This document shows positions 3-18,999 of a stretch of DNA of 28,165 nt, one piece after another. The stretch comes from Bordetella parapertussis (GTDB lineage: Bacteria; Pseudomonadota; Gammaproteobacteria; Burkholderiales; Burkholderiaceae_C): the NCBI GenBank assembly GCA_945878355.1, contig CAMCTC010000061.1, positions 1-28,165 on the forward strand, written 5' to 3'. The position numbers and the translations under genes are program-made. Position 1 is the stretch's first letter; every line of letters begins with the position of its first letter. The notes beneath the pieces were generated by a model. The model did no database searches and was not told where the DNA came from. It was given only the letters and a program-made list of their open reading frames with translations.

Positions 3-3000
3 CGCACGCTGTCAGTGACGCTGGCGGTCGAGCGCGGTGCGCTGGCGGTTACCACCGCGAATGCAGCGGGATTGACCGTGGAATCGGCTGTTGGTGGTTG
101 GAAGATAACTGGAAAAATGAGCGTAATTTCGACCTTCCTGTCCACCTCCGGCAACCTGAGCTATGCATCAGACAACGGCGTCGTCAAGGGCGGCTTGACG
201 GTCACGGTCAGCGACGGCCTCAACCAGACGGTGCGGACTGCGCCGCTGGTGGTCCAGGCTGCGGCGGTGCAGGCGTCTTACAACGGCGGCAATTTCGAAA
301 TACTGGGCATCGGTGGCAACGGGCTGCGACTGAGCCGCAGCGCACTCGACGATGTGCGGCTGACCGCGCTGGACGACGAATTGACGATTGCCAGATTGTC
401 TGATTCAGCGCTGGTGCTGACGGCCTCTGGGGGCGCCGACAGCGTCGTGCTGAACCTGGGCAACAGCACATCGACCGACCCGAATGCGGTGTTCGAGTTG
501 AAGCTCAAGAATGACTCGCAGAACCTGGCCAACGATTCGCTGACGGTCCAGCTCAAGCCCTTGAGCAAGTCCAGCACGCAGAACGTGATCACGCTGAGCA
601 ATGGCCAGATGATCAGCGGCGTTGAGAACGCGACCTGGCAACCGGGTCTGGGCGAACTGGTGATCCAGGGCGACGTGGTGCGTCTGGTCGCTGTTGCGGG
701 TGCGGCCGGTGTTGCGCCGTCAATCAACCTGGGCGACACGAAGCTGCGCATCATCGCGTCGAGTTTGACCCTCGATGCCGACCTGATCGTCAAGGACGCC
801 AGCAAGCTGGTGCTGAATGTCAGCGACAGCATCACGCTGCAGTCGATCAAACTGGCGGGCACCGGCACCAATGTGAGTGTCAGCGCCGCGCTGGTCGACA
901 AGACCGGCAAGGTCAAGGTGATCCAGTCGGTGACCATCACGATCCCGACCGACGGCAAAGCGGTTGACTTGAACCAATTCGCTGCCGCAGGCACAGGCCT
1001 GCAGGTCTCGCCGCCGGCAGGCGTCGCGATCTCGCTGGGCGGTGCTGGCAGTGCGGGTGGTTTGAACCTGGATCCGAGCCAAGTGAGCGGCGTCCCGGCG
1101 CTGGTGATCGGCTCGGCCGGCGGGTCTAGCCCGGTCGCGATGGGCGGCGCCGGCAGTCCGCCGCTGACCTTGTCCGTGCCCTTGGTGATCCAGGCCCAGG
1201 GCGCGGGCGGCAAGATCACCGTGGCCGGCAAGGTCACCGGCAAGAGCTTGGTGGTCCGCGGGCCGGGCAACACCACGTCGCTGGCCGATGGCACGGTGCT
1301 CGCGATGAGCGGCGACCTGATGATCGACGACGGTTTGCGGGTCGATGGCGGGGCCGTGTTATCGGCTGGCACTGCGGCGCAGGCCGGCGTGGCGGCAGCC
1401 GCTGGCGACCTGACCGTGACCGGGCGCATCAACGGCGGCACGGGCGCGAAAGATGTGCTGACGCTGGACGCGTTTGGCGGCGACGTGGCGCTGAACGGGC
1501 GCATCGGCAGCGGCGTCGGTGTGTTCACATTTGCTGGTGGCTCGCTGTACCGCAACGCCGCTGGCACTGCCTTGCAGAGCGGCAGCTTCGCCGAGGTGAA
1601 CCTGCTCGGCGGGTCGGGCAGCGGCGCGACCGCGACCTTCACCGTGGCGGGTGGCGTGGTCACCGGTGTGGTGATCCACTCGCTGGGTGGCGGCTACAAG
1701 GTGGGCGACGTGCTGACGGTGGCGCGCGCCGGGCTGGAGGACTACGAAGGCTTCGGCGGCGGCTTTGCGCTGACGGTGACGTCGATCGCCGGCCTGGAAG
1801 GGCTGACGATCGCCCATGCCCAGGACGTGGTGTTCGGCGAGCGTGTCTACATGGCCGGCGACGTGGTGATCAACGCGACTGGCGACGTGGTGTTCAACGA
1901 CCAGGTCGTGCTGCTCAACGGCGCGAAGCTGGTGGTCAACGGCGCCCACAGCGTGACCTTCAACAACGGCCTGATTTACGGCCAGGGCGCTGCCGGTTAC
2001 GGTGATCTGGAGATCAACGGCGGGGCGGTGAACTTTGCGTCGGGGATGTGGCAAGGCGACGGCGTGAGCTACACGGCTTCGGGCCTGGATTCGACGCACG
2101 GACTTCTAGCCCAGGTGAACGCAGGCGGTACCGGTTTCGGCGCGATCGATGTGGCTGGCGCGAACCTGGCGCTCAACAGCTATGTCGGCCGCAGTGACCT
2201 GGTGCTGGCGCCCGCGATGACGGTCCACGCCACCGAATCGGTGACGATGAGCGCGACGACCGGTCAGATCCTGACCCAGGCCGGCAGCACGGTGACTGCG
2301 CCCCAGGTGAATCTGACTGCGGGCACGGGTGTGGGCAGCGCGGCTGCGCCCTTGGCCATCGCAGCCGGCAGCCTGCAGCTGCAGTCCTTCAAAGGCGACA
2401 GCTACCTGCGCGAAGCCGATGCGCTGACGGCGGTCGAGGCCAACGTCGGCGGCAACCTGACGCTGACCAGCGGCGGTGCGTTGAACTTTGGCACCAGCGC
2501 GGTGGCGGGGACCTTGACCGTCACGACGGCCAGCGGCGGCATCAGCCAGACCGGCGCGTTGGTGGTCACCGGGGCTTCTAGCCTGACGGCCGCAGGCGCA
2601 CTGAGCCTGGCCAATGCCGGCAATGACTTCAAGGCCGTGGTGTCGGCCAATGCCAGCGGGGCGATCACGCTGAAGGACGCCAATGCGCTGGCGATCGGCG
2701 AGCTGGTCGCCGCTGGCGCTGGCGCGATTCGCGTCGAGGCGGCAGGCGACATCTCGCTCGGCCGCTTGCAGTCCGGCTCGGGGCCGGTCACGGTGGTCGC
2801 CGGTGGCGCGATCCGCAACACCGGCAACACCGCGCTGACCAATGTCCAGACCTCAGGGTCTGCGTCTGTCGAAGCCGGCACAGGCATCGGCGGATTCGGC
2901 AGCGCGCGCTTGCTGCTGTCGGCCGGCGAAGTCACGGGTTTGAACAAGACCAGCGGTGACGTCGTGCTGGCCGGTGCCACGGGCCTGACGGTGGGCAGCG

Positions 3001-5465
3001 CAGGCGTCAAATCGCAGGCCGATGGCTGGATGGTGTTGCTGTCGGGCGGCGCGCCGGTCGGCGGCGCGAAGTCTGCGGTGACCAGCGCCGGCCCGAATGC
3101 GGTGGTCTTCAAGTCGGGTCTGACGATGATCGACGAGGCAAGCTTGCTCGACGAATTGGCGCCCAGGTTGGTGATCAGCAGCAGCAAGTCCGAGGTCAAG
3201 GCTGGCGACAACGCTTCGATCACCTTCAGCTTCAGCGCCGACCCGGGCGGCAGCTTCGTCGCGGGTGACATCTCGACGCTGGGCGGCACGCTGGGTCCGA
3301 TCAGCGGCAGCGGCTTGACGCGAACAGCGACCTTCAGCCCGACGTCGGGCGCGGGCAGCGCCAGCATCTCGGTCGCAGCCGGGCGCTTCGCCGATGTCTT
3401 GGGCCACCTCAGCGCGCCGAGCAACCAGCTCGTCATCGGCATCCCGGCCGATGCGCCAGTGGCTGTGCCCGTCACGCCGACGCTGACCATCACCAGCAAC
3501 CAGCCTGCGGTGAAGAAGGGCGAGACCTTGCTGATCAGCTTCAACTTCAGCGACGACCCGGGCGGCAGTTTCGTCAACGGCGACATCGCGACCGCGGGCG
3601 GCACGCTGGGCCCGATCAGCGGCAGCGGTTTGACGCGCACGGCGATCTTCACGCCGACGCCCGGCCTGCCATCGGGCCAGGCGAGCATCACGGTGGCTGC
3701 CTGGCTTTACGACGATGGGCAGGGCAACTACGGCGCGGCGGGCCAGGCACCTGTGCTGAAGATCGACACGCTGGCGCCGACGCTGGCGATCACCAGCAGC
3801 AAGAACGTGCTGGCCCAGGGCACGACCTCGCTGATCAGCTTCACGTTCAGCGAAGACCCGGGCAACAGCTTTGTCGACACCGACGTGGTGACGCTGGGCG
3901 GCACGCTGGGCCCGATCAGCGGCAGCGGCCTGAGGCGAACAGCGGTCTTCACGCCGGCGCTTGACTTCGAGGGCATGGCGAGCGTCAAGGTGCCGTTCGG
4001 GCGCTACCTGGATGCGGCGGGCAACGCCGGTGCGGCGGGCAAGACGCCGGCACTGAGGATAGACACGGTCGCGCCGACGCTGACGATCACCAGCGACCAG
4101 GACCTGGTCAACAGCTCTGCGGTGATCAGCTTTGGTTTCAGCGAAGACCCGGGCACCAGTTTTGCGCTCGACGATGTCGTGACCTTGGGCGGGACGCTGG
4201 ATTCATTGAGCGGCAGCGGTCTGACCCGGACTGCGACCTTCACCGTGACGCCGGGCATGGGCCTGGCCGACATCTCGGTGGCCGCCGGGCGCTACACCGA
4301 CCCGGTAGGCAACGCCGGCGCGGCAGGTGCGAGCCTGCTGATCCAGCGCGACACGGTCGCGCCGACGCTGAGCATCACCAGCGACGTTGCGCTGCTCAGA
4401 AAGGGTGAGAAAGCGCTCATCACCTTCACGTTCAGCGAAGACCCGGGCGCAAGCTTCGGGTCGACCGATGTCGTGGTCTCGGGTGGCACGCTGGGCGCGA
4501 TCAGCGGTGCCGGGCTGACGCGCAAAGCGAGCTTCACGCCAACGCCTGGTCTGGCATCAGCCCAGGCCAGCATCACGGTCGCGCCCGGTCTCTACACCGA
4601 TGCGGCGGGCAACGCCGGCGCTGCAGGCAGCACGCCGACGCTGCTCATCGCGACGGTGGCGCCGACGCTGGCCATCACCAGCAGCCAGCCGGCGGTCAAG
4701 ATCGGTGAGACCGCGGTCATCAGCTTTGTCTTCAGCGCCGACCCGGGGGCTAGCTTTGTCGCTGGCGACGTGGTGACCACGGGCGGCAAGCTCGGGCCGA
4801 TCAACGGCAGCGGTTTGACCCGCAGCGCGGTCTTCACGCCGGCGTCCGATCTTGCCGGCGGCATCGCGAGCATCGCGGTCGCCGCCGGGCGCTACACCGA
4901 TGCGGCGGGCAACGCCGGCATCGCAGGCAACACGCTCGAGATCGGCATCAACGCCGCCGGTCCCAAGCCGCTGTCGGTGATGCGAAGCATCGCCGCGCTG
5001 AGCCTGGCGACACCCGCCGACGTGACAACAGTCGCCGCGTCGTCACGCCAGGCCAGCGCTTTCGGTGGCATCGGGCTGCAAGCGGTTCAGCCGTCGACGG
5101 CCGTGCTGGGCCGATGGGGCGGCAACCTGCCGGACCTGATGAACCAGTTCCATCAGGCTTCGACCGATCAGCACGAACCCGCGCAGCTGGACGCACGGCC
5201 GGGCGCAAAGCTCAGGCCGATCGACAACGCCTCGTCCTGGGTCAGCGACGACCAGTCCGAAGCGGCGGTTGCCGCGACGGCCTGGGCAAGCGGCCCGGCG
5301 CGCGAGGCGGGTCAAACCACAGGTCTGGGTTCGCGGCTCAAGTCCTGGGTCGGTCGCGTCGAGCGCTGGCTCGACTCGCAGATGCTGCCCAGCGCTGACC
5401 CGCCCGCAGCGCAGCCGCGGGACCGGCAAGAAGCGCCTGTGCGCAAGGACGAGAGGTCGAGCTGA
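3..5465 (+). CDS. Giant repetitive surface-type protein with Ig-like repeats (5' end outside window)
   Basis: The frame is open to the left edge with no stop, so this is the last ~1,820 residues of a larger protein; the GTG at 15 is probably internal. The first ~1,000 residues are Gly/Ala/Thr/Val-rich, with alternating short strands typical of haemagglutinin-like beta-helix repeats (for example GALNFGTSAVAGTLTV). Residues ~1050-1645 are six Ig-like repeats, each with the core GGTLGPISGSGLTRTA or a variant and most ending YTDAAGNAG. A unique tail of ~170 residues follows, including an amphipathic stretch near the end (LKSWVGRVERWLDSQ) and a charged terminus. I see no autotransporter barrel, no RTX nonapeptides and no PEP-CTERM motif, so the export route is unknown. 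Adhesin or matrix protein is inferred from repeat type only. The Ig-like domain resembles the bacterial Big families; I cannot name the exact one from sequence alone. Confidence 0.9.
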   Translation, partial: RTLSVTLAVERGALAVTTANAAGLTVESAVGGWKITGKMSVISTFLSTSGNLSYASDNGVVKGGLTVTVSDGLNQTVRTAPLVVQAAAVQASYNGGNFEILGIGGNGLRLSRSALDDVRLTALDDELTIARLSDSALVLTASGGADSVVLNLGNSTSTDPNAVFELKLKNDSQNLANDSLTVQLKPLSKSSTQNVITLSNGQMISGVENATWQPGLGELVIQGDVVRLVAVAGAAGVAPSINLGDTKLRIIASSLTLDADLIVKDASKLVLNVSDSITLQSIKLAGTGTNVSVSAALVDKTGKVKVIQSVTITIPTDGKAVDLNQFAAAGTGLQVSPPAGVAISLGGAGSAGGLNLDPSQVSGVPALVIGSAGGSSPVAMGGAGSPPLTLSVPLVIQAQGAGGKITVAGKVTGKSLVVRGPGNTTSLADGTVLAMSGDLMIDDGLRVDGGAVLSAGTAAQAGVAAAAGDLTVTGRINGGTGAKDVLTLDAFGGDVALNGRIGSGVGVFTFAGGSLYRNAAGTALQSGSFAEVNLLGGSGSGATATFTVAGGVVTGVVIHSLGGGYKVGDVLTVARAGLEDYEGFGGGFALTVTSIAGLEGLTIAHAQDVVFGERVYMAGDVVINATGDVVFNDQVVLLNGAKLVVNGAHSVTFNNGLIYGQGAAGYGDLEINGGAVNFASGMWQGDGVSYTASGLDSTHGLLAQVNAGGTGFGAIDVAGANLALNSYVGRSDLVLAPAMTVHATESVTMSATTGQILTQAGSTVTAPQVNLTAGTGVGSAAAPLAIAAGSLQLQSFKGDSYLREADALTAVEANVGGNLTLTSGGALNFGTSAVAGTLTVTTASGGISQTGALVVTGASSLTAAGALSLANAGNDFKAVVSANASGAITLKDANALAIGELVAAGAGAIRVEAAGDISLGRLQSGSGPVTVVAGGAIRNTGNTALTNVQTSGSASVEAGTGIGGFGSARLLLSAGEVTGLNKTSGDVVLAGATGLTVGSAGVKSQADGWMVLLSGGAPVGGAKSAVTSAGPNAVVFKSGLTMIDEASLLDELAPRLVISSSKSEVKAGDNASITFSFSADPGGSFVAGDISTLGGTLGPISGSGLTRTATFSPTSGAGSASISVAAGRFADVLGHLSAPSNQLVIGIPADAPVAVPVTPTLTITSNQPAVKKGETLLISFNFSDDPGGSFVNGDIATAGGTLGPISGSGLTRTAIFTPTPGLPSGQASITVAAWLYDDGQGNYGAAGQAPVLKIDTLAPTLAITSSKNVLAQGTTSLISFTFSEDPGNSFVDTDVVTLGGTLGPISGSGLRRTAVFTPALDFEGMASVKVPFGRYLDAAGNAGAAGKTPALRIDTVAPTLTITSDQDLVNSSAVISFGFSEDPGTSFALDDVVTLGGTLDSLSGSGLTRTATFTVTPGMGLADISVAAGRYTDPVGNAGAAGASLLIQRDTVAPTLSITSDVALLRKGEKALITFTFSEDPGASFGSTDVVVSGGTLGAISGAGLTRKASFTPTPGLASAQASITVAPGLYTDAAGNAGAAGSTPTLLIATVAPTLAITSSQPAVKIGETAVISFVFSADPGASFVAGDVVTTGGKLGPINGSGLTRSAVFTPASDLAGGIASIAVAAGRYTDAAGNAGIAGNTLEIGINAAGPKPLSVMRSIAALSLATPADVTTVAASSRQASAFGGIGLQAVQPSTAVLGRWGGNLPDLMNQFHQASTDQHEPAQLDARPGAKLRPIDNASSWVSDDQSEAAVAATAWASGPAREAGQTTGLGSRLKSWVGRVERWLDSQMLPSADPPAAQPRDRQEAPVRKDERSS
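3159..4950 (+). repeat. Six tandem Ig-like domain repeats (~288-315 bp period)
   Basis: Repeat units begin at about 3159, 3474, 3774, 4071, 4359 and 4659, each encoding (A/T)PxLxITS near its start. Each unit contains FSxDPGxSF, then GGTLGPISGSGLTRTA or a close variant. Units 3-6 end in variants of YTDAAGNAG, while units 1 and 2 diverge there. Conservation is visible in DNA as well as protein, especially over the GGCGGCACGCTGGGC stretch. Such arrays can expand or contract by recombination, so copy number may differ between strains. Confidence 0.9.
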
Positions 5466-14140: not shown

Positions 14141-14166
14141 AGCGCCTCTCAGCGCCTCTCAGCGCC
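14141..14166. repeat. 10-bp tandem repeat at the end of the BufBC gene
   Basis: AGCGCCTCTC occurs at 14141-14150 and 14151-14160, followed by AGCGCC. The stop codon of the BufB-BufC fusion lies at 14159-14161 within the array, so slippage here would alter the extreme C-terminus or the 3' end only. Confidence 0.7.
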
Positions 14167-15841
14167 CCGGCGGGACCCCAATCACCGCAGCCGGTCTTTG
14201 CAGGACCTGCGATGCCAGGCACTGCTGCAGGAGCCCGACGACATCGAACTCGGCGTCGAGGCCCAGCGCTGCATCCAACGCGCTGCCGAACGCAGCCCCT
14301 TCGGCCAGCCCGGTCAGCCATCGGTGGCCTGCCGCCGACAAGCTCAGCACCTGAGGCTTCCACGCCGGTCGGCACACCAGCACATGGCAGCGCTGGTCAA
14401 GTGGCTCGGCAAACTCGCTCGGCGCTTCGCGCTGGTGGGCCTGCCAAAGCCCGGCAATCGCCCATCGGGACGCCAGCAACACGCAGGCTGGTTGCAGCCG
14501 AAGACAGGTCTGGCCGAGCATTTCCGGCGTCAGATCGACCAGGTCCTGGGCTGAGACGGGGTCGCCGTCGGCTGCGTAATACGCGCGATGCAGGGCCCAT
14601 TCCAGCCTGGCCATGTCCGGAAAATACGGGTAGTTGGCCACTGGCGAAAACCCTGCCAGGAACTGCGCGAAATCAGCCCCGAAGTCGTTGAGGTCGCCGC
14701 TGCTCGACGGGTGGGCCGAGCCATAAGCTCGAGCCAGCGCCGCAAAGAACTCCTCGCCGACCAGCTGCTGCAACACCGGGTAGGCCGCCGCGAGCGTCTT
14801 CTCCCAGGTGCTCACCAGGTGGCCGCGGTAGCGGGCAAAGCGCGCGGCGCTGCGAGACGGTTCGCCGACGAAAGCATCGGGCGCGTGCTGACCCAACAGG
14901 GCCTGGGCAAAGCCGTGCTGGATGGCCTCCAGCGCAGGCGCGGCCACCGCTTCGACGCGGCCTCGCGCGCTGGTCCGCAACGTCGAATCCGCAGCATGCG
15001 GCGGTGTCGCTGCGGGACAGGTCTTGAGCATCAACGCTCGCGCTGTGTCGGCTTCGGCCAGCAGCAGGTCCAGCGCGGGAATGTCGGTGTCCCATTCGAT
15101 CAGCGTGGGCACCGGCCCAAAGCGTTGCAGCGCGTGCTCGTAGAGCCGCCACACCGATGCTGCCACCCGGTCGCCATGGTGGTCGACCACTGCGTCGGGC
15201 GTCACCAGATGGCCTGCCAGATGGATCTCACCGACATGCTCGGCCGACACCCGATCGATCGCCGCCAGGGCCGACTCCTGATGGTTGCACTGGTTCACAT
15301 ACAGGTTGTTGACGTCCAGCAGGATGCCGCAGCCCGTGCGTTGCGCGACTTCGGACAGAAACTCGGCTTCGCTCATCGCGTCGGCGCGGTAACGAAGATA
15401 GGTCGAGACGTTTTCCAGCAGGATGGTTTGTTGGATCGCATCCTGGACCTGGTGGACCCGCTGGCAAACCAGCTCGAGCGCGGATCGCGACAACTGCAGC
15501 GGCAGTAGGTCGTTGAGGTGCCGGTCTGCCACTGCGCCCCAGCACAGGTGCTCGGACACCAGCGCAGGCTCAAGCGCCTTGACCAACTGCGCGACGCGCT
15601 GCAGATGCACTGGGCTGAAGCCCTGCGCCGAGCCGATGCCCATGCCAACGCCGTGCAGGCTGATGGGATAGCGCTGCCGCAACTCGAACAGCACATGGCG
15701 GTCCACGCCGCCTGCTTGCAGATAATTCTCGGTGTGGACTTCGAGCCAGTCGACGGCAACTTGCTGCTGCTTGAACTCGCGGTAGTGGCGGGCTCGCAGG
15801 CCAATCCCAACGCCCTGCAGTTGGGCCGCGCTTGCAGGCAT
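14159..15841 (-). CDS. BufB-BufC fusion: MNIO (DUF692) maturase joined to DUF2063 partner
   Basis: A 560-residue protein with two parts. Residues ~8-280 are the DUF692/UPF0276 TIM-barrel of multinuclear non-haem iron oxidative enzymes. It shows GIGLRARHY, WLEVHTENY (Glu34, His36), SLHGVGMGIG (His63), SEHLCWG (His98), LLENVSTYLRY, LLDVNNLYVNQCNH, GEIHLAGH and IEWDTDIP, which supply the His/Asp/Asn/Glu iron ligands. Residues ~310-555 are DUF2063 (BufC-like): QHGFAQALLG, FARYRGHLVSTWEKTLAAAYPVLQQLVGEEFFAALA, then YPYFPDMARLEWALHRAYYA. In known bufferin systems the MNIO protein uses this partner to convert precursor cysteines to thiooxazoles. The two are normally separate genes; here they share one chain with a short linker. 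It starts 15 bases after the precursor gene's stop and has a weak ribosome site, so coupling is likely. Confidence 0.9.
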   Translation of the reverse strand: MPASAAQLQGVGIGLRARHYREFKQQQVAVDWLEVHTENYLQAGGVDRHVLFELRQRYPISLHGVGMGIGSAQGFSPVHLQRVAQLVKALEPALVSEHLCWGAVADRHLNDLLPLQLSRSALELVCQRVHQVQDAIQQTILLENVSTYLRYRADAMSEAEFLSEVAQRTGCGILLDVNNLYVNQCNHQESALAAIDRVSAEHVGEIHLAGHLVTPDAVVDHHGDRVAASVWRLYEHALQRFGPVPTLIEWDTDIPALDLLLAEADTARALMLKTCPAATPPHAADSTLRTSARGRVEAVAAPALEAIQHGFAQALLGQHAPDAFVGEPSRSAARFARYRGHLVSTWEKTLAAAYPVLQQLVGEEFFAALARAYGSAHPSSSGDLNDFGADFAQFLAGFSPVANYPYFPDMARLEWALHRAYYAADGDPVSAQDLVDLTPEMLGQTCLRLQPACVLLASRWAIAGLWQAHQREAPSEFAEPLDQRCHVLVCRPAWKPQVLSLSAAGHRWLTGLAEGAAFGSALDAALGLDAEFDVVGLLQQCLASQVLQRPAAVIGVPPGR

Positions 15842-15856
15842 CGGGAGCCGCCAGCG

Positions 15857-16126
15857 CTACTTCGTTTTCTTCTTCTTGGCTTCCTCGGCAGTCATGCCAC
15901 CTGACTGTTTACAAGTGCCTTTGGCCACGTACGTCCAATCGTTTGCACTCTTGTCGGATGTGGCCTGTCCGGCGCAGGAGTGCGAGCCGTTCAAAGAGGC
16001 GCAATCATTCTTCCCGGCCTTGGCGATGCCGTAGCACTTTTCTTTGTCCCCGGCGGCGACGGCGGCGCTGGGCGCAGCCACCAGCGCGGCCAATGCGGCG
16101 GCGAGCAGGATTTGGCGTTTGTCCAA
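15857..16126 (-). CDS. BufA-like bufferin precursor (DUF2282), copper-binding RiPP candidate
   Basis: An 89-residue secreted small protein. Residues 1-25 are a signal peptide ([21 protein letters not shown]). The mature part has four cysteines: Cys31 in [14 protein letters not shown], Cys42, Cys51 in HSCAGQ and Cys72 in KGTCKQ. This is the DUF2282 pattern of class 1 bufferins. The C-terminus is Lys-rich (EEAKKKKTK). Characterised bufferins are periplasmic peptides whose cysteines are partly turned into thiooxazoles and that bind copper. The start is TTG at 16126, supported by AGGAGA 6 bases upstream; no ATG or GTG is better placed. It precedes the BufB-BufC fusion by 15 bases. Confidence 0.88.
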
Positions 16127-16161
16127 GTGAAGTCTCCTGAAGAAAAGCGGGGCGGGCGGCT

Positions 16162-16209
16162 TGTGACAAGGGTCAGTCGCTGCATGGAAAGGTTTTTGAT
16201 CTTGTCACA
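16162..16209 (-). promoter_or_regulatory. Inverted repeat upstream of the bufferin precursor
   Basis: TGTGACAAG (16162-16170) and its exact reverse complement CTTGTCACA (16201-16209) are 30 bases apart, 36-83 bases upstream of the precursor's TTG. The inner copy is itself part of a small palindrome (CTTGTGACAAG). Further GTCA elements lie beyond it. No convincing sigma70 promoter is visible, so an alternative sigma factor or activator site is possible; this is inference. Confidence 0.4.
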
Positions 16210-18316: not shown

Positions 18317-18387
18317 GGTTTGTCCTGTGAGGCGGGTCCATCGATTGTCAAGCAATGCGCGGCCGGCTTCGGCCGGCCTCGGGGCGG

Positions 18388-18999
18388 TCAATAGCTCATC
18401 GGCAAGGCCAGGCCCATCGCGATGAACAGGCCGCCGCAGCCGCGGTTGAAGTTCTTGCCCAAGCGAGCGAGCAGAGGGCTGATGCGCTGCGCCAGGCTGG
18501 CCAGCAAGTACTCAAAGCCGAACTCGACCAGCACGAAAGTACCTGCCATCGCGATGAACTGGACCACCAGGTCGCGTGCCGGGTCGATGAATTGGGGCAG
18601 GAAAGCGCCGTAGAACAGCAGCGCTTTCGGGTTCGACAGCGCTGTCAGCAGACCCTGGCGGAACATCTCCCGGCCCAGCGCTGCGGGTCTTGAGGTGTCG
18701 GCCTGCAGCCGGATTTCCGGCGCGCGCCACAGCTGTATGCCCAGCCACACCAGGTAGGCGCCACCCAGCAGCTTGAGCCATGTCAGCGCGGCCGCGGAAG
18801 CCTTCAACAGCGCGCCGATGCCCAGCATCGACAGCGCGATCAACGCGGCGAATCCCAGCGCTCCGCCGCTGACGGTGAACAAGGTTTTGCGCGGGCCGTG
18901 CAGTACCCCGTGGGTCAGCACCAGCAAGCTGTTCGGGCCGGGTGTCAGCGACAGCCCCAGCGCGGCGACCAGGTAGAGCAACCAGGTGTGAAGGGCCAT
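18388..18999 (-). CDS. LysE/RhtB-family amino-acid exporter
   Basis: A 203-residue inner-membrane protein with about six hydrophobic helices. The family signature LSLTPGPNSLLVLTHGVLHGPRKT lies near the N-terminus and NPKALLFYGAFLPQFID in the middle. Members export amino acids or their analogues (lysine, homoserine, threonine, leucine). The ATG at 18999 gives the usual MxLHTWLLYL start; a GTG at 19014 would add five residues. Neither has a strong ribosome site. It lies 71 bases upstream of the aldo/keto reductase on the same strand. Confidence 0.9.
   Translation of the reverse strand: MALHTWLLYLVAALGLSLTPGPNSLLVLTHGVLHGPRKTLFTVSGGALGFAALIALSMLGIGALLKASAAALTWLKLLGGAYLVWLGIQLWRAPEIRLQADTSRPAALGREMFRQGLLTALSNPKALLFYGAFLPQFIDPARDLVVQFIAMAGTFVLVEFGFEYLLASLAQRISPLLARLGKNFNRGCGGLFIAMGLALPMSY

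Follow-up and report, generated by a model that had tools for sequence, protein, structure and literature searches.

A probable minimal Buf1-type bufferin operon whose maturase and partner form one polypeptide

The contig analysed here (CAMCTC010000061.1 of assembly GCA_945878355.1, catalogued as Bordetella parapertussis; its whole length of 28,165 nucleotides is called the window) carries two minus-strand genes, bufA and bufBC, which probably constitute a minimal Buf1-type bufferin operon with the MNIO maturase and its PME1 partner in one polypeptide, working by the mechanism proposed below. Bufferins belong to the ribosomally synthesized and post-translationally modified peptides (RiPPs). 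An earlier note, made from the letters alone, had read the locus as a bufferin module with BufB and BufC fused, and domain profiles, conserved residues, predicted folds and relatives now back that reading. The fusion is real and recurrent, an arrangement within a known RiPP system that has apparently not been described.

The 560-residue BufBC chain holds, as the earlier note described, both a DUF692/MNIO domain (PF05114, residues 10-270) and a DUF2063 domain (PF09836, residues 307-395). It falls into the bufferin-maturase class, with 355.8 bits against the NCBIfam model MNIO_BufB (NF050167, cut-off 310), and stays under the cut-offs of the HvfB (231 bits vs 360), HvfC (46 vs 142), ApyH (80 vs 400) and ChrH (39 vs 600) models as well as under that of the MbnB model (TIGR04159; 44 vs 325), which places it outside the methanobactin-class MNIOs. 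Among 121 aligned proteins, H63, H207, D220, H222 and E249 are identical in all, and H98, E143 and D176 in at least 98%; further alignments of 52 and 74 rows show no variation at any of the eight. We take H63, H98, E143, D176, H207 and E249 to be probable iron ligands, and D220 and H222, a D-x-H motif, align to D242 and H244 of HvfB and to 3bww; together the eight are putative iron ligands at the positions conserved in the MNIO superfamily. The predicted model is a confident two-domain structure, the catalytic half adopting a TglH/MbnB-like and the partner half an NGO1945/TglI-like fold. The C half is a complete PME1 partner, DUF2063 plus an RRE-type domain, which keeps its conserved residues and is predicted with a confidence (predicted local distance difference test, pLDDT) of 93.8. 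A profile search of this half against PDB sequences gave no match up to an E-value of 1, and its relation to known structures is therefore visible only by fold. The linker region, measured between aligned residues 272 and 300, spans 7-57 residues (median 22) in the 121 proteins.

The precursor described in the earlier note, an 89-residue DUF2282 protein with four cysteines (Cys31, Cys42, Cys51 and Cys72), was borne out by a PF10048 match. By eye, its N-terminus fits a signal-peptide pattern, with a basic start, a hydrophobic stretch and a VAA^G site; the EGKCG repeat expected of oxazolin (HvfABC) precursors is absent from BufA. The gene order, A followed by B and C in one frame, is that of Buf1 systems (bufA-bufB-bufC), and 15 nt separate bufA from bufBC, both on the minus strand. 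According to the available portions of the papers, from which all literature statements here are drawn, the Buf1 bufferin of C. vibrioides carries cysteine-derived thiooxazoles on its central cysteines, the outer two forming a disulphide, and aids growth in excess copper (PMC12452194).

By analogy, BufBC is most likely a single-chain bufferin maturase for copper stress. The DUF2063-RRE half would bind the Sec signal peptide of BufA, which would act as leader, and would deliver Cys42 and Cys51 to the diiron site of the MNIO half joined to it, where both would be oxidised with O2 to 5-thiooxazoles. Sec would then export the modified BufA; once cleaved behind Ala25, and held together by a disulphide between Cys31 and Cys72, it would bind excess copper in the periplasm. 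The tether would replace assembly of a BufB-BufC heterodimer, keep maturase and partner at 1:1 stoichiometry and keep the iron site in its partner-activated state.

Single chains with both DUF692 and DUF2063 proved to be numerous and recurrent across genomes. When the best 80 of 356 confirmed stretches of a genome scan were examined, both halves lay in one frame in 55 (L001-L055) and were split into neighbouring genes in 24; a 56th locus (L068) is truncated by a contig end and begins within B. Fifty-one of the 55 are complete. L051 and L054 are cut short at the contig edge, the B half of L021 is missing its start, and L020 has an 817-aa frame in which only a portion of the C half can be recognised. 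All of the 55 except L020, hence 54 loci, have a precursor-like open reading frame (ORF) upstream. Each of the best 120 of 4137 homologues unites both Pfam domains in a single chain, and they include a cluster (P0001) of 73 member sequences that is 98% identical; the domain order is B then C in every fused case. With further loci added from the window's family and classified by profile, the distinct fused loci number 68, the window included.

The number of origins was assessed on a tree of 114 BufB domains, 67 fused and 47 split, from which duplicates and the partial row L021 were left out. On this tree the fused form needs five changes, three of them forced by starred branches. Clade I comprises 54 rows, including the window and named Oxalobacteraceae, and clade II ten rows (L106-L114 and L117; support 100). 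Of the ten clade II rows, seven gave a readable precursor, in each case with six cysteines; two of these precursors were scanned and had no Pfam match. They look like Buf2 precursors, as judged without the published Buf2 profile. The other fused sequences, L050, L104 and L105, have DUF2282 precursors. Placing all fused sequences in one clade was rejected (p 1.4e-80), as were all of them except clade II (p 3.0e-7), clade I with L104 and L105 (p 1.65e-4) and clade II with L104 and L105 (p 0.003); clade I with L050 (p 0.17) and L104 with L105 (p 0.59) were not rejected. The tested groups were named after the tree had been seen, and three changes could equal one gain and two losses. The phylogeny firmly indicates more than one origin of the fusion, and the pairwise clade tests support three, leaving the five of the best tree unneeded. 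We prefer gains over losses because split forms are spread across the phylum. B and C occupy different frames in 41 of the 45 distinct split loci, so that a small indel is usually what it would take to join them.

All counts of genomes with a match are lower bounds. In a phylum-wide sample at least 145 of 398 genomes matched; among the matches listed, G586 alone combines both halves in a single stop-free frame, and four genomes (G388, G630, G306 and G582) span both halves with one internal stop, as split neighbours would. The family of G586 is, by inference, Oxalobacteraceae-like, and here at least 116 of 195 genomes matched. At least 60 of its genomes have a single match across both halves, at least 53 of these without an internal stop (two reach only residue 426-432) and seven with one stop; in G729 and G586 the two halves share a frame and appear as two matches. 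In the window's own family at least 191 of 299 genomes matched, at least 11 of them with a stop-free spanning match among the matches listed. The five genomes of the same genus are mixed, again among the matches listed: G001 has the clade I form, G144, G228 and G297 are split and G012 has none. This mixture suggests that the fused form arrived horizontally in the window's lineage. The earlier note had singled out the locus as a less-described variant; the fusion of B and C stands, but it is not singular, since the fused form is common in one Oxalobacteraceae-like family.

Compared with Buf1 biosynthetic gene clusters (bufABC with DoxX, as in Caulobacter vibrioides and the Cupriavidus gig operon), the window shares the four-cysteine DUF2282 precursor with a signal-peptide pattern, the BufB-class MNIO, the DUF2063 and RRE partner and the A-B-C order; it differs in having B and C as one chain and in lacking DoxX (BufD) and the extracytoplasmic function (ECF) sigma/NrsF pair. 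The closest analogue is engineered. In HvfBC the partner is required for the active Fe(II)/Fe(III) state, the separate partners can bind weakly, HvfB and HvfC made separately show no activity on combining, and a fusion in the same B-C order surpasses the coexpressed pair in activity (PMC13419390, a 2026 preprint). That construct, too, is an MNIO followed by a PME1 partner in one chain, 1:1 by construction, yet it is artificial, linker-free and of the HvfB/oxazolin branch (PMC13419390), whereas BufBC is natural, of the BufB branch and has the linker region described above. BufBC may thus be a natural version of this construct, and a stoichiometry fixed and a complex stabilised by fusion would fit its behaviour (PMC13419390). 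MovX likewise is an MNIO with a recognition-type domain of its own, a C-terminal RRE/winged helix, but appears to be partner-independent, whereas BufBC has a whole DUF2063 and RRE partner attached (PMC13419390, PMC12452194). The TglHI and MbnBC heterodimers (8hi7, 7dz9, 7fc0) differ in having two chains, other substrates and other products. In the available portions of the literature compared (PMC12452194, PMC12668002/PMC13097082, PMC13419390, PMC12710340, PMC8692599, PMC12538549, PMC12509749, PMC12141560, PMC11002830 and PMC8719888), which did not extend to subscription papers, supplements or the original bufferin report, we found no description of a natural MNIO-DUF2063 fusion. Several of these chains bear the NCBI name "MNIO family bufferin maturase", so the fused sequences are already known though their architecture seems undiscussed.

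The strongest alternative, quite possible though not the explanation we favour, accepts the identity as a bufferin maturase and disputes only the benefit of the tether: coupled neighbours would have been joined neutrally by small indels, and the chain would be equivalent to a BufB-BufC pair. Relative to the B half, the C half shows a two- to threefold faster divergence whether the system is fused or split, with similar median ratios of C to B divergence (1.85-2.86 fused, 1.99-2.65 split; L068, L021, L020, L051, L054, L061 and L134 were left out as partial or duplicate). An altered evolution of the partner after fusion was thus rejected. Neutrality is further favoured by the frame offset of most split loci, by which one small indel suffices, and by the wide occurrence of split systems. 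On the other hand, the fused form recurs and persists in one Oxalobacteraceae-like family, and the engineered analogue outperforms its coexpressed pair in activity (PMC13419390).

Several observations weigh against a functional single-chain operon of the kind proposed or against parts of that proposal. Since the divergence ratios are alike, the fusion has left no detectable mark on partner evolution. No clear Shine-Dalgarno site was seen ahead of bufBC when the sequence was read by eye. Copper control of bufA-bufBC is without direct support, as local sigma/NrsF and DoxX genes are absent. A single clade uniting clades I and II was rejected only weakly (p 0.034, for groups named post hoc). Lastly, the leader is equally conserved in fused and split pairs (0.65 each) at a BufB identity of 0.65-0.75.

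At a BufB identity of 0.55-0.65 leader conservation is higher in fused pairs (0.47 vs 0.24; 25 and 110 pairs). Within clade I, leader residues 2-18 are about as conserved as BufB and the spacer is less so (0.88 vs 0.47; 546 pairs at a BufB identity of 0.75-0.85). In our own reading, this pattern in fused and split pairs would support recognition of the signal peptide in general rather than any effect of the fusion. The near-invariant clade I consensus of residues 2-18 is MNKRQALIAAALATVCAA. Of 50 fused clade I precursors, 45 have a cysteine at leader position 16, and 31 split ones have no cysteine in the leader; the window's BufA has Val16 instead.

Alternatively, the fused enzyme might install another cysteine modification, or its product might serve another metal or stress. 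MNIO chemistry is diverse and groups have assigned related products differently, MerC-bufferin fusions suggest further metals (PMC12452194), and a Pfam scan of 15 window ORFs turned up no copper gene. We consider this unlikely, given that the bufferin-maturase model was passed while the HvfB, MbnB, ApyH and ChrH models failed, and given a DUF2282 precursor with the four-cysteine pattern. It is very improbable that an internal start also yields a separate BufC, leaving the fusion as only part of the output: the window does have an in-frame GTG with a Shine-Dalgarno-like site at residue 299, but starts of this type close to the junction were counted in 10 of 52 fused loci, no more often than in control windows (0.21 of 445), and for want of enrichment the internal start was rejected.

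That a frameshift, a sequencing error or a lost stop joined two genes, an objection the earlier note had itself raised, or that the C half is decaying, is hardly credible: the window and L001 are 92% identical in the B half and 61% in the C half, and no more than part of the C half can be recognised in L020, but the one-frame relatives, the conserved residues and confident fold of the C half, and a C half at the same place in the nearest genome (G001, up to the contig end) refute it. The joining apparently arose more than once in related bacteria, which also argues for a real design and not a sequencing slip. G001 shares the MFS and thioesterase neighbours with the window (88.8% DNA identity over 1978 bases); its C half, 56% identical to the window's, runs into the contig end, and the genome has, separately, a split bufABCD operon accompanied by sigma and NrsF.

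Aligned with L001:6001-7740, window 14159-15841 is 98% identical over its first 90 residues and about 60% identical in the C half, a sharper drop than other close fused pairs show; four-fold sites differ as well, at 0.67-0.79 in B and 0.48-0.62 in C. Gene conversion is a possible cause. The record of L020 is labelled as a Bordetella parapertussis metagenome-assembled genome, and its DNA is 83-89% identical to the window over long stretches, for which reason the species label is probably wrong.

The absence of BufD (DoxX) and sigma genes from the window, reported in the earlier note, was reproduced: DoxX, ECF-sigma and NrsF had no match in window ORFs of at least 40 aa, with profiles built from the single locus L081, which remote members may escape. 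These genes are accessory, not defining, for a Buf1 system, and their absence is not special to the window, since it is common among the 55 fused loci: within the flanks available, sigma/NrsF occurs in none, and DoxX follows in 31 and was not found in 24, some on short contigs. Three of the 12 other fused loci (L104, L114 and L117) have a sigma gene nearby.

Table 1. Features of the bufA-bufBC locus in window coordinates.
Feature	Position	Strand	Basis or remark
bufA, 89-aa DUF2282 (Buf1-type) precursor	15857..16126	-	TTG start; PF10048 E 6.7e-23
Predicted Sec signal peptide/leader, BufA residues 1-25	16052..16126	-	sequence pattern only
Cys31 codon, expected disulphide partner of Cys72	16034..16036	-	role by homology, PMC12452194 Fig. 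3 legend
Cys42 codon, expected thiooxazole site	16001..16003	-	role by homology, PMC12452194
Cys51 codon, expected thiooxazole site	15974..15976	-	role by homology, PMC12452194
Cys72 codon, expected disulphide partner of Cys31	15911..15913	-	role by homology, PMC12452194
AGGAG Shine-Dalgarno-like site, 7 nt upstream of bufA	16134..16138	-	read from sequence
bufBC, 560-aa fused maturase	14159..15841	-	ATG start; ORF, domain profiles and relatives
MNIO (BufB) domain, BufBC residues 10-270	15032..15814	-	PF05114 E 9.7e-101
Low-confidence linker, BufBC residues 278-300	14942..15010	-	pLDDT 52-59 in blocks 281-300
DUF2063 domain, BufBC residues 307-395	14657..14923	-	PF09836 E 6e-22
RRE-type region, BufBC about residues 454-543	14213..14482	-	three strands then three helices

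In the Pfam scan of 15 window ORFs, bufA-bufBC is flanked on one side by MFS, thioesterase and beta-lactamase-fold hydrolase genes and on the other by genes for a PEP-CTERM protein and an aldo/keto reductase. A 9-bp perfect inverted repeat (TGTGACAAG/CTTGTCACA) lies upstream of bufA at 16162-16209; as a conserved operator it was rejected, having no counterpart in other upstream regions (58 entries, two duplicates). After the aldo/keto reductase gene, a short GC-rich hairpin-like stretch (18359-18400) has dozens of near copies in G001. An 1816-aa ORF at 15-5465, in which Pfam recognises six Big_12 Ig-like repeats and one DUF5649 repeat, is a possible surface protein.

A more far-reaching idea, which we regard as rather unlikely and offer tentatively, is that of a repeatedly evolved self-activating MNIO, in which the attached partner locks the iron site permanently in its active, mixed-valent form and the chain seizes the BufA signal peptide before Sec does. 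Were it true, only modified bufferin would be exported, and the clade I leader MNKRQALIAAALATVCAA would be a recognition element hidden within the signal peptide. The single-chain bufferin maturase that we favour has consequences of its own. Annotation pipelines that expect a separate DUF2063 gene after the MNIO gene should take it as a warning. The recurrent fusion in the same order, in Buf1-type as well as in six-cysteine (Buf2-like) systems, hints that partner association limits maturation. The fused loci are a natural source of single-chain maturases in a system where binding between separate partners can be weak (HvfB/HvfC, PMC13419390), and give direct access to the effect of the partner on the iron cofactor and to how a RiPP maturase handles a substrate that bears a Sec signal.
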